In this document: positions 14,818-18,953 of the stretch, one piece after another
Layout of the letters: each line of letters begins with the position of its first letter
Position numbering within the stretch: the first letter of the stretch is position 1
From: an uncultured bacterium
GTDB lineage: Bacteria; Bacillota_I; Bacilli_A; RF39; UBA660
Reading direction: 5' to 3'
DNA: 34,759 nucleotides
NCBI GenBank assembly: GCA_937863745.1
Contig: CALMHN010000145.1
Coordinates: forward strand, 1 to 34,759
Notes under the pieces: generated by a model
The model's database searches: none
The model's input: the letters and a program-made list of their open reading frames with translations, nothing else
Told to the model about the DNA's origin: nothing
Program-made: the position numbers and the translations under genes

Positions 14818-14827
14818 AGGAGGGCTT

Positions 14828-16285
14828 ATGAACTTAGAAGATTTGTTAAGTAAAATAAGTGATTATAGTTCTAAAGATAGAGCTATGATAATTTTAGCTT
14901 ATGAACATGCTAAAGTTCTTCATGCCGGCGTTTTTCGTAGAAGTGGTGAACCTTATATAACTCATCCAGTTGCCGTTGCTTGTATATTGGCAGAAATGCA
15001 TGCTGATGCTGATACAATCGCGGCTGGTTTATTACATGATACGATTGAAGATACTCCGGAAACTAAGGAAGGCATTGTCATGGCTTTTAATCCAACCGTT
15101 GCTGAACTAGTTGATGGAGTAACTAAGATTAAAAAAGAAGATGGTATTCCTATAGATCAATTGGAAGCAGCAAATCTTCGTAAAATAGTTGAGAGTTTAA
15201 CTAAGGATGTTAGAATATTTATTATTAAATTAGCTGATAGATTACATAATATGAGAACAATGGATTATCAAAAACCAGCGACAAGAATTAGAAAATCTCG
15301 TGAGACAATTGATTTATATGTCCCTTTTGCTCAATATCTTGGTGAGTATACATTTAAATTCGAATTAGAGGAGTTAGCTTTTAAATATTTATATGAAAAT
15401 GATTATCAACGTTTTATTGATAGTTTGAATGATATTGAAAGACATGATCGAGATAATATTGATTTAGTATTGTTAGAAGTGTCTAAAGCTTTAGATTCTA
15501 ATGAAATACCCTTTGATGTAAAGTTTAAAATGAAAAATATATATGAAGTATATCGTAAACTTTATATATATAAAGATGTTGGGAATATTAATGATATTCA
15601 CGATTTGTTTTCCATAAAATTAATATTACCAGATGTTCAAACTTGTTATTGGCTACAGGGTAGATTAATAGAAGCTTATCGAGGTTCTATTTTAGAAGAT
15701 AAATGTAAGGATTATATTAAGTCTCCTAAGACTAATAAATATCAAGGATTACATATAAGTGTTAAGTTAAAAGATGGTACTTCTTTTCAGTTTCAATTAA
15801 AAACTAAGGAAATGTATAATATTAATGCTTATGGTTTAACAGCTTATTGGAATTTATTAAGATCTTCTAATTTAGATACTGCTAAAGATGTAATGCAAGA
15901 TGAAGTTAAAAAGATGCCTTTTTATCCTATCTTGGATGAATTATTAAAAGAAAATGAAGATCCATTAGAATTTTCTCGTAAAGTTAAAAATGATATATTA
16001 GGTAAGAATATTTATGTAGAAGATAAAAACATGCAAATTATTGAATTACCTGATGGTTCAACTCCGGTTGACTTTGCTTATTATAAGAAACCTTCATTAG
16101 GTGAAAGTCTAATAAGTGCAAGGGTAAATGGTAGTTATGTTCCTTTGGATACTAAATTAAGCAGTAAAGATATCGTTGATGTTGATTATAATATTAATAT
16201 GCAGGGACCAAGGGAGAATTTAATTGATAAATGCATGACAGAACATGCTAAGTCTTTAATACGTAAAAGATGGAATATTAGTTAA
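14828..16285 (+). CDS. rel: Short Rel/SpoT homologue: intact ppGpp hydrolase, altered synthetase, TGS, no C-terminal regulatory domains
   Basis: 485 residues against about 730-750 for full Rel. Residues 20-150 are the HD hydrolase with metal/catalytic residues kept (H46, H70-D71, E74-D75, D137 in KLADRLHN). Residues 228-345 are the synthetase fold (KDYIKSPK, HDLFSIK with D259), but usual active-site residues differ: the glutamate of EIQIRT is Gln321 (QFQLKT), the RxK motif reads K234-M-K236, and R, NGYQS and EMH positions are K264, NKYQG and EMY. Residues 393-455 are a TGS domain. The helical, zinc-finger and ACT domains are absent; the protein ends about 30 residues after TGS. It is predicted to be mainly a (p)ppGpp hydrolase with weak or no synthesis. 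The ATG follows AGGAGGG. Confidence 0.9.
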   Translation: MNLEDLLSKISDYSSKDRAMIILAYEHAKVLHAGVFRRSGEPYITHPVAVACILAEMHADADTIAAGLLHDTIEDTPETKEGIVMAFNPTVAELVDGVTKIKKEDGIPIDQLEAANLRKIVESLTKDVRIFIIKLADRLHNMRTMDYQKPATRIRKSRETIDLYVPFAQYLGEYTFKFELEELAFKYLYENDYQRFIDSLNDIERHDRDNIDLVLLEVSKALDSNEIPFDVKFKMKNIYEVYRKLYIYKDVGNINDIHDLFSIKLILPDVQTCYWLQGRLIEAYRGSILEDKCKDYIKSPKTNKYQGLHISVKLKDGTSFQFQLKTKEMYNINAYGLTAYWNLLRSSNLDTAKDVMQDEVKKMPFYPILDELLKENEDPLEFSRKVKNDILGKNIYVEDKNMQIIELPDGSTPVDFAYYKKPSLGESLISARVNGSYVPLDTKLSSKDIVDVDYNINMQGPRENLIDKCMTEHAKSLIRKRWNIS

Positions 16286-16309: not shown

Positions 16310-16336
16310 TTAGCACTTTCTATTGACAAGTGCTAA
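16310..16336 (+). promoter_or_regulatory. CIRCE operator (HrcA binding site), variant arms
   Basis: TTAGCACTT, 9 bases, AAGTGCTAA: a perfect inverted repeat matching the CIRCE consensus (TTAGCACTC-N9-GAGTGCTAA) except for a compensated C-to-T/G-to-A pair at the inner end. It surrounds the -35 box of the hsp20 promoter, so HrcA binding would block RNA polymerase. hrcA itself is not in the window. Confidence 0.93.
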
Positions 16337-16379: not shown

Positions 16380-16784
16380 ATGTTACCTAGTAGAATATTT
16401 TTTGATGATTTCATGGATGATTTAGATATTCCTAGAGATAAGAAATTTGATAAATTAATGAAATGCGATATTTATGAAAAAGATAATAATTTCGTTATTG
16501 AAATGGATGTACCTGGATTTAAAAAGGAAGACATCAAAATGGAACTTTCAAATGGCTATTTGAATATATCTGCTGAACATCATATTGATGATAAAGATGA
16601 AGATAAGAAAAAACATTATATTCGTCGTGAAAGAAAAGTTGACGAAAGATGTGAGAGATCATTCTATGTTGGCGATGTTGATGAAAAATCTGTTGAAGCA
16701 GAATTTAAAAATGGTACATTGCTAATTACAGTTCCTAAAGAGGAAAAAGAAAAAAATAATAAGAAATTAATTTCAATTAAGTAA
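16380..16784 (+). CDS. Small heat shock protein, Hsp20/alpha-crystallin family
   Basis: 134 residues with the alpha-crystallin domain at about 27-125: KCDIYEKDNNFVIEMDVPGF, the A-x-x-x-n-G-x-L type end motif (EAEFKNGTLLITVPK), and a lysine-rich tail ending KLISIK, the usual I-x-I oligomerisation motif. The start is ATG 16380, with GGAAGGAAG upstream. It is an ATP-independent chaperone that holds unfolding proteins in the cytoplasm for refolding by ClpB/DnaK. It is first in the CIRCE-controlled unit with clpB, matching the classical pairing of holdase and disaggregase. Confidence 0.95.
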   Translation: MLPSRIFFDDFMDDLDIPRDKKFDKLMKCDIYEKDNNFVIEMDVPGFKKEDIKMELSNGYLNISAEHHIDDKDEDKKKHYIRRERKVDERCERSFYVGDVDEKSVEAEFKNGTLLITVPKEEKEKNNKKLISIK

Positions 16785-16838: not shown

Positions 16839-18953
16839 ATGTATCCAAATATGGAAGATGATACAAAAAATGTTTTAGAAAAATATGGAAGAGATATTAC
16901 TTCATCAGCTAAAGATAATAAAATAGATCCGGTTATTGGTAGAGATGAGGAAATACGTAATTTAATACGTATTCTTTCACGTAAAACTAAAAATAATCCA
17001 GTGCTTATAGGTGAACCTGGTGTTGGTAAAACAGCTATCGTGGAAGGCCTTGCTCAACGTATTATTCGTGGAGATGTTCCTGATGATTTAAAAAACAAAA
17101 AAATTTGGGAATTAGATTTATCGGCATTGGTGGCTGGTGCAAAATATCAAGGTGAATTTGAGGAAAGATTTAAAGCAGTTTTGAATGAAGTGTCTAAATC
17201 CGAAGGTGACATTATCATGTTTATTGATGAAATACATATGATAGTTGGTGCTGGTTCTTCAAGTGCAATGAATGTTGGTAATATGTTAAAACCAATGCTT
17301 GCTCGTGGTGAAATAAGGTTAATTGGTGCAACTACTTTAAAAGAGTATCGTGAATATATTGAAAAAGATGGAGCTCTTGAAAGAAGATTACAAAAAATAC
17401 TAGTAAGAGAACCATCAGTTGTGGATACCCTTACAATACTTCGTGGTTTAAAGGAAAGATTTGAAGTTTATCATGGAGTTACAATTCGTGATAATGCTTT
17501 AGTCGCGGCAGTTAATATGTCTGATAGATATATTACTGATAGATTTTTACCTGATAAAGCCATTGATTTAGTCGATGAAGCCTGTGCCACAATTAAAATG
17601 CAAATGAATTCAGTTCCAGTTGATCTTGATAAAATAAATCGTCAAATAATGACTTTGGAAATTGAACATGAAGCATTAAAAAAAGAAAAAGATGAAGTAT
17701 CAGTTAGTCGTGTTAAAGAAATAGAAGAACAAATGAATAAGTTAAAACTTAAACAAGATTCTATGCGTAAGACATGGGAGGAAGAAAAAAAACTTAAGGA
17801 TCTAGTTAATGATAAAAAGTCTAAATTAGAAGAATTAAAGTTTGAACTTGAATCAGCTGAGAATAGTTATGATTTAGAGAAAGCTGCTAGAATTAAACAT
17901 GGTGAGATACCTAAACTTGAAGAAGAAATATCTCAATTAAAATTGACTATGCAAAACCAAGTGTTATCAGATGTTGTATCGGAAGATAACATTGCTGAGA
18001 TTGTTAGTCGTTGGACTAATGTTCCTGTTGCCAAATTGGTTGGAAGCGAGAAAGATAAATTATTAAGTCTTGAAGAAAATTTAAAGATAAGAGTTAAGGG
18101 TCAAGATGAAGCAATAAAGCTTGTAAGTGATGCTATCATTCGTGCAAGATCAGGTATAAAAGATCCTACAAGACCAATTGGATCATTTATATTCATGGGT
18201 CCAACTGGTGTTGGTAAAACGGAGATTGCTAAGTCTTTAGCTTATGAATTATTTGATGATGAAAGACATATGATTAGAATTGATTGTTCTGAATATATGG
18301 AAGCATTTAATGTATCGCGTTTAATAGGTGCTCCTCCTGGTTATGTTGGTTATGATGAAGGTGGAGAGTTAAGTGAAGCTGTAAGACGTAATCCATATTC
18401 TATTGTTTTATTTGATGAAATAGAAAAAGCACATCCCGATGTATTTAATATCTTACTTCAAATATTGGATGATGGACATATTACAGATTCTCAAGGAAGA
18501 ACAATTGATTTTAAAAATACAATTATTATTATGACTTCTAATTTGGGTAGTGAAGTTATTTTAAATAATGAAAATAATGCTTCACGTGATGAATTAGTTA
18601 TGAATATCTTAAAATCTAAATTTAGACCTGAGTTAATTAATAGAATAGATGAAATAGTAATATTTAATTCTTTATCTAAAGCTGTTATTTATGAAGTATT
18701 AGATAGAATTATAGATGTTGTTAACGAGCATTTAAAAAACGTCCATTTATCTATAGAATTAACTAAGGAAGCGAGAGTTCATGTTATAGAAGAATCTTAT
18801 AGTCCTGAGTATGGTGCTAGACCTATTAAGAGATATGTTACTAAGCATATTGAAACTTTGATTGCTGAGAGTTTATTAAATGAAACTATTCATGAAGGTG
18901 ATAAAGTTTTAATAGATTATAAAGATAAATTTATATTAAGTAGGAAAAATTAA
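16839..18953 (+). CDS. clpB: ClpB-type AAA+ disaggregase lacking the N-terminal domain
   Basis: 704 residues; full ClpB is about 860. The usual double-Clp N domain (about 140 residues) is missing and the protein begins directly before NBD1 ([25 protein letters not shown]). NBD1 has Walker A GEPGVGKT (58-65) and Walker B IMFIDEIH. Residues of about 250-385 form the coiled-coil M domain needed to work with DnaK. NBD2 has GPTGVGKT (about 454-461), [26 protein letters not shown] and the sensor-2 region GARPIKR. It threads aggregated proteins for refolding. The M-domain length and lack of a visible IGF/L ClpP-binding loop favour ClpB over ClpC or ClpE. Mycoplasma ClpB proteins are similarly short. 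AGGGAGGTG is the RBS. Confidence 0.93.

Follow-up and report, generated by a model that had tools for sequence, protein, structure and literature searches.

Introduction

Synthesis and hydrolysis of ppGpp are completely split between two Rel copies in the Moraxellaceae, with a hydrolase-only RSH carrying a pseudo-synthetase (SpoT[Hs]) and a long partner restricted to synthesis (RelA[hS]) (PMC3153485; PMC9974481). The SpoT of A. baumannii (SpoTAb) has been tested as a hydrolase-only RSH and its TGS has lost the tRNA-contacting His; TGS and Core clamp its HD site, removal of TGS and HEL lowers its activity, the helical domain supports the hydrolase, and the zinc finger and ACT just tune it (PMC9974481). 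RelA, for its part, has a pseudo-hydrolase (PMC8012599), and a truncated second Rel, RshC[HS], is known from six Bacillus strains (PMC3153485). Regarding synthesis, the E323Q and D264G substitutions eliminated the synthetase activity of RelSeq (PMC13299517), and in E. coli RelA the E335Q mutation is a catalytic one (PMC4432633). A literature search, which covered titles and abstract openings and reached subscription papers thinly, returned no description of such a split in the group of bacteria studied here, which is no proof of absence.

Here, we analyzed a window of 34,759 nucleotides from an uncultured bacterium (the whole stretch of DNA under study), which carries a short rel gene. An initial annotation had suggested that the product is a TGS-bearing, hydrolase-only Rel, and sequence, orthologues and selection now lend support to this view. 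Very probably, the short protein works solely as a (p)ppGpp hydrolase and belongs to a pair of copies that goes back to the duplication of an ancestral bifunctional Rel before the family diversified. The split would resemble that of RelA and SpoT but with a truncated hydrolase, and it seems to have arisen apart from the pair of E. coli and its relatives. The reading of the two proteins as a pair draws on residues, domain limits, purifying selection, the orthologue pattern, the tree and the predicted fold.

Features of the short rel gene

The short rel ORF opens with an ATG (Table 1). Pfam matched HD_4 (5e-38), RelA_SpoT at just 59.5 bits and TGS (2.7e-11), in the domain order of the long type of the RSH superfamily, and NCBIfam TIGR00691 scored 406.9 bits, under its cut-off of 499.2.

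Table 1. Coordinates of the short rel gene, its parts and its downstream neighbours in the window.
Feature	Position	Strand	Remarks
Ribosome-binding-site-like AGGAGGG	14818..14824	+	3 bases 5' of the ATG; read from the sequence
Short rel gene, 485 aa	14828..16285	+	HD hydrolase, pseudo-synthetase, Core and TGS; without helical, zinc-finger and ACT domains
HD_4 hydrolase domain, aa 24-172	14897..15343	+	Catalytic and metal residues all canonical
Lys234 codon	15527..15529	+	Aligned with RelSeq R241
Degenerate synthetase domain, aa 235-342	15530..15853	+	Pfam RelA_SpoT
Gln321 codon	15788..15790	+	Aligned with catalytic RelSeq E323
TGS domain, aa 403-451	16034..16180	+	Lys421 at the tRNA-contacting His position of Rel
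CIRCE-like perfect inverted repeat	16310-16336		TTAGCACTT-N9-AAGTGCTAA; 5' of hsp20
hsp20	16380-16784		Downstream of the short rel
Clp-type ATPase gene	16839-18953		Next after hsp20

The CIRCE-like repeat is presumably an HrcA operator. A heat-shock operon including the short rel was considered and rejected, since hsp20 has this CIRCE-like operator of its own. Among the other genomes of the genus examined, hsp20 lay near the short gene in six of seven, and it was near none of the other loci, for which mostly 1.5 kb of flank was covered; we therefore claim no link to Rel function.

The initial annotation had described intact hydrolase residues next to a synthetase Glu and an arginine replaced by Gln321 and Lys234, in a protein that ends just past TGS. 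All nine hydrolase residues checked are indeed canonical in the window protein (R37, H46, H70, D71, E74, D75, D137, R138 and N141, in RelSeq numbering R44, H53, H77, D78, E81, D82, D144, R145 and N148), and the pairwise alignment with RelSeq (1vj7) placed Gln321 on E323 and Lys234 on R241. The catalytic E323 of a bifunctional Rel[HS], which we take to be the same residue as E335 of E. coli RelA, is thus a Gln here. The helical, zinc-finger and ACT/RRM half of a Rel[HS] is missing too, the C-terminus lying 33 residues past position 452. The short end is not an assembly truncation, since 47 family short rows stop in a like manner, 20-49 residues past this position; the 71 family long Rels extend 256-274 residues past it (one contig-cut row excluded).

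Compared to bifunctional Rel proteins of Bacillota (RelSeq, B. subtilis, S. aureus), the window protein shares the fold of the catalytic half and the TGS but lacks the synthetase catalytic Glu and the C-terminal regulatory half. With small alarmone hydrolases (MESH1, RelH) it has the HD_4 fold and probably a similar job in common; those enzymes, however, have neither synthetase nor TGS, and the window protein has both folds. RshC, known here by description, is likewise truncated in the helical domain with the TGS kept, but it is described as having HD and SYNTH, with no synthetase loss reported in the accessible account (PMC3153485).

Predicted structure

An AlphaFold2 model of the short Rel, for which the input alignment held 40 of the 45 complete shorts with the window protein included, reached a mean pLDDT of 93.4 and a pTM of 0.90, and the predicted fold includes the SYNTH and TGS parts. 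Its catalytic half aligned with S. aureus Rel 7oiw_A (VIA-align Z 38.3, rmsd 1.6, 324 residues), its TGS with 3hvz (Z 12.1, rmsd 0.7, 64 residues) and its HD with the small alarmone hydrolase 3nr1_A (Z 18.7, rmsd 2.1, 167 residues). When the model was compared by Foldseek with full-length Rel, RelA or SpoT, the rmsd was 10-15, and the domain orientation is therefore different or unsure.

The full-length Rel of the same genome

The genome from which the window comes (1.54 Mb, 96% complete) contains a second Rel, full length with 719 aa, on contig C76. Its synthetase residues and tRNA-contacting TGS His are canonical, and a zinc-finger cysteine block and C-terminal part were seen by eye (Pfam RelA_AH_RIS, 27 bits). 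In its hydrolase, D78, E81, D82 and D144 are all replaced, with HETVDHG for HDxxEDT and KLAGR for KLADR. A search of this genome for a third RelA_SpoT (PF04607) or HD_4 (PF13328) gene found none, the two matches of each being these two Rels. With two RSH proteins only, and opposite damage in them, the long protein would thus synthesize and the window protein would hydrolyse, as far as RSH proteins go. The initial annotation had suggested looking for a small alarmone synthetase elsewhere in the genome; such a partner was rejected, as no further PF04607 gene was found in this genome, and the full-length Rel with its damaged hydrolase takes that place. On the residues found, "bifunctional" would be a wrong annotation for both Rel genes of this genome.

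Conservation of the short and long Rels in the family

The family sample comprised 81 genomes, namely the nearest relatives (G000-G036) and every fourth genome of an order-wide draw (G060-G232). A long Rel was found in 74 and the short form, as a fragment in some, in 48; both were present in 45 genomes and neither in 4. The short fragment of G003 (L228) counted for presence and was left unaligned, and G136_S_L263, a contig-cut long Rel that falls in the long clade, was excluded from the short set together with both fragments of the long Rel of G084. The HD site was covered in 49 of the 51 short rows, the E323 column in 48 and the TGS His column in 47.

As for the hydrolase, the canonical set was present in 49/49 short rows covering the site (47 identical, 2 with R145K). 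Orthologues with canonical synthetase residues, to which the initial annotation had pointed as a counter-argument, were looked for: none of the 48 short rows has Glu at E323 (Q in 43, K in 2, otherwise H, R or L), R241 however being kept in 30/48. The long rows showed the opposite damage, for E323, D264, R241, K243, K304, N306, Y308, H312 and the TGS His are retained in 72/72, and the nine hydrolase residues are complete in 23 and altered in 49. By a six-residue count over 74 long Rels (including two incomplete ones), E81 or D82 is gone in 49, of which 41 have lost a metal ligand too, and D78, E81, D82 and D144 are lost in 10/10 long rows at the genus level. Conservation followed the same pattern: HD was better conserved than SYNTH in 96% of 1035 short-short pairs, and SYNTH better than HD in 97% of intact and 99% of damaged long Rel pairs. 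SYNTH was also slower than HD in 93% of 55 pairs of outgroup Rels; since intact longs and outgroup Rels behave in this way too, the reversal in the shorts alone is diagnostic.

The synthetase pocket of the shorts is not lost evenly. Residues of what we take to be the guanine/GDP side are mostly kept (K304 45/48, N306 46/48, Y308 47/48, H312 43/48; also D264 45/48), and those of the catalytic and ATP side are largely lost (E323 0/48, R269 2/48, S247 7/49, K251 19/49), but the division is not clean, with the ATP-side K243 kept in 46/49 and the guanine contact A335 in just 31/48. It is conceivable, if doubtful, that the pseudo-synthetase serves as a guanine-nucleotide sensor in which bound GDP, GTP or (p)ppGpp tunes the hydrolase. 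Should this be true, ppGpp removal would be governed by the guanine nucleotide level and not by the ribosome.

The same retained residues, D264, K243, K304, N306, Y308 and H312, together with an R241 that persists in 30/48 shorts (though Lys in the window protein), would also fit a short Rel that is still bifunctional, Gln321 being tolerated and the synthetase merely weak. We hold this to be extremely unlikely, as E323Q and D264G leave no detectable synthesis by RelSeq (PMC13299517) and most shorts are likewise changed at R269, S247 and R295.

Another explanation would make the short protein a regulatory pseudo-enzyme or a paralogue in decay, with no hydrolase activity of physiological relevance, which may restrain the long Rel. 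The shorts evolve fast, with end branches up to 2.4, their distribution is patchy (the long-Rel tree requires 20 changes, some of them possibly assembly gaps), and G019 holds HD-region pieces with stops. However, the nine hydrolase residues, lost in many long Rels, are held in 47/49 shorts (R145K in the other 2), and the HD-region dN/dS of the short gene among its relatives is 0.08-0.27 (seven of the nine pairs tried yielded a value), from which the gene does not look like a pseudogene; we consider this explanation very unlikely.

Two degraded copies were seen in the survey. An in-frame TAA splits the long Rel of G084:C1 (L284) within an already damaged HD, the synthetase half staying open, as a pseudogene or an assembly error. 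In G019, a genome without a RelA_SpoT match, the short-form-like HD pieces (C22:11690-12008) contain several stops and may be a decaying copy.

Probable duplication history and distribution

The main tree held 129 rows (45 shorts, 73 family longs and 11 class-level Rels), with eight fragment rows left out. The 45 shorts formed a clade (SH-aLRT 99) that was sister to the 73 family long Rels (99), and the 11 class-level Rels stood apart from both (99). The grouping was unchanged, with lower support (57 for the shorts, 90 for shorts and longs), in an HD-only tree of 89 rows that further omits G136_S_L263, five very long short rows and the 49 damaged long Rels. Both trees are quick ones with several shorts as long branches, and their rows include neither proteobacterial SpoT nor SAH. 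Given this grouping, the simplest reading would be that Rel was duplicated once, at the root of the family, and that the short copy lost E323 early on.

The trees also bear on the substrate. MESH1 and other HD_4 hydrolases accept a wider range (PMC7644958; PMC9765508), and the short protein could accordingly act on a related nucleotide such as (p)ppApp or NADPH and not on (p)ppGpp. Its HD nevertheless retains HDxxED and the other checked Rel residues, and the shorts group beside Rel on trees from which SAH is absent, so that we regard another substrate as very unlikely.

On an HD-free tree, damage to the long-copy hydrolase took 10-11 changes, with the well supported branches alone requiring at least 5, and on the main tree 9, in counts where loss and regain are indistinguishable; one long-Rel clade of 28 rows on the main tree is damaged throughout. 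This provides about ten more or less independent instances in which to study the conditions under which a long Rel can do without its hydrolase.

Outside the family, the 168 genomes of a 197-genome class sample had at most one match at E 1e-40 among the matches listed, except G329, a fragmented assembly with two. Of 85 named loci that patterns from the window protein picked out in one-genome-per-species records, 80 were examined. Short forms with Gln at E323 make up four of these 80 (L033-L036, from MAGs whose titles give Bacilli, Firmicutes or Bacillota), and one of the four (L034) has two hydrolase residues changed; the remaining 76 have Glu at E323 in 74, the column being missing in 2. None of the plasmid records searched had a match of >=60% identity. 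In G152:C1 (82500-91793) and G208:C6 (15517-24015), only 5.6-6.5 kb separates the short Rel from the long one, with both genes on the same strand; this closeness may go back to a tandem duplication.

Proposed division of labour

Enzyme activities, ribosome independence and a scaffold role of Core and TGS are what we infer for the pair. An ancestral bifunctional Rel would have duplicated prior to the diversification of this family of Bacilli-type bacteria. One copy, the short one, would have shed its C-terminal regulatory half and also the chemistry of synthesis, by a natural E323Q and changes in other pocket residues, and HD, pseudo-synthetase, Core and TGS would have stayed in place. The other, long copy would have kept the synthetase, the TGS and the C-terminal ribosome-sensing parts, its hydrolase probably being lost in the window's genome (D78, E81, D82, D144) and in many relatives. 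From the mutation data and the SpoTAb and RelA parallels, the long Rel would make (p)ppGpp on starved ribosomes in the manner of RelA, and the short protein would degrade it away from the ribosome in the manner of SpoT, Core and TGS presumably keeping its HD site in the active shape.

This arrangement resembles the SpoT[Hs]/RelA[hS] pair of the Moraxellaceae (PMC9974481; PMC3153485), the window protein having the intact hydrolase residues and lost synthetase residues expected of a SpoT[Hs] type, and the damaged long copies of the family resemble RelA with its pseudo-hydrolase (PMC8012599). The TGS His is lost in SpoTAb, in the window protein and in about half of the shorts. In contrast, the helical, zinc-finger and RRM parts are all present in the full-length SpoTAb, and the window protein stops after TGS; the parallel is imperfect because most of the helical domain, supportive in SpoTAb, is missing. 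The organisms are distant, and on the tree the hydrolase copy of the present family would have specialised earlier than the synthetase copies. It would thus be a second lineage with the split, reached by another route (with truncation and E323Q preceding repeated damage to the long copy's hydrolase), and a natural replicate. It would also provide a natural hydrolase built solely from HD, pseudo-synthetase, Core and TGS, of which Core and TGS are important for hydrolysis by SpoTAb.

The initial annotation had further proposed that the short Rel is not coupled to the ribosome in the usual way. The missing C-terminal parts and Lys421 in place of the TGS His point in this direction for the window protein; the TGS His persists, however, in 23 of the 47 short rows in which its column is covered, so that its loss is not general.

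Association between short-form presence and long-hydrolase damage

The presence of the short form was only modestly associated with a damaged long hydrolase. Scoring short present or absent against long damaged or intact by six residues gave [[34,11],[15,14]] (p=0.045), and a nine-residue version in which G136 was not yet reassigned gave [[35,9],[15,14]] (p=0.02). With damage defined as at least 2 or at least 3 residues lost, p was 0.055 and 0.35, and five independent tree pairs, too few to reach significance, gave 2.6 in the same direction and 0.0 in the opposite one (median p 0.25). A strict coupling of short presence to long-hydrolase loss was rejected, the association being weaker than expected. 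In 11 genomes with a short form, the long Rel retains all six key hydrolase residues, so the split is incomplete in places.

Conversely, 15 genomes have a damaged long Rel with no short form detected. A 40-row profile search of these 15 for a hidden short form recovered the long Rel, with HD-only or HD/P-loop proteins in addition in some of them, and a PF01966 search matched other HD proteins. An HD_4 plus P-loop protein occurs in four of them (G015, G031, G156, G164); G021 has an HD_4 protein of 225 aa, and HD_4 proteins of 186-345 aa with no PF04607 match noted are present in G060, G112 and G156. In G140, D82 is the sole change in the long hydrolase. No other HD_4 hydrolase was found in the remaining seven (G010, G022, G036, G120, G160, G220, G232). 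Assembly gaps (completeness 90-95%, hence 5-10% missing) may account for the missing short form in some exceptions but would explain only a few of the 49 genomes with damage.

Other HD_4 and RelA_SpoT proteins in the family

L215:1577-2917 and like ORFs in L212-L214, L216-L220, L314 and L315 combine a MESH1-like HD_4 with a P-loop NTPase motif. These fusions are ~450 aa long (653 aa in L218), and some occur where the long hydrolase is damaged and the short form unseen. In L222:1353-2714 (G002:C22), G007:C16 and G001:C154, the last copy being truncated at the contig end, tandem RelA_SpoT domains lie in one ~450-aa protein, and in L222 each of the two synthetase domains carries EIQVRT, making this a doubled small alarmone synthetase.
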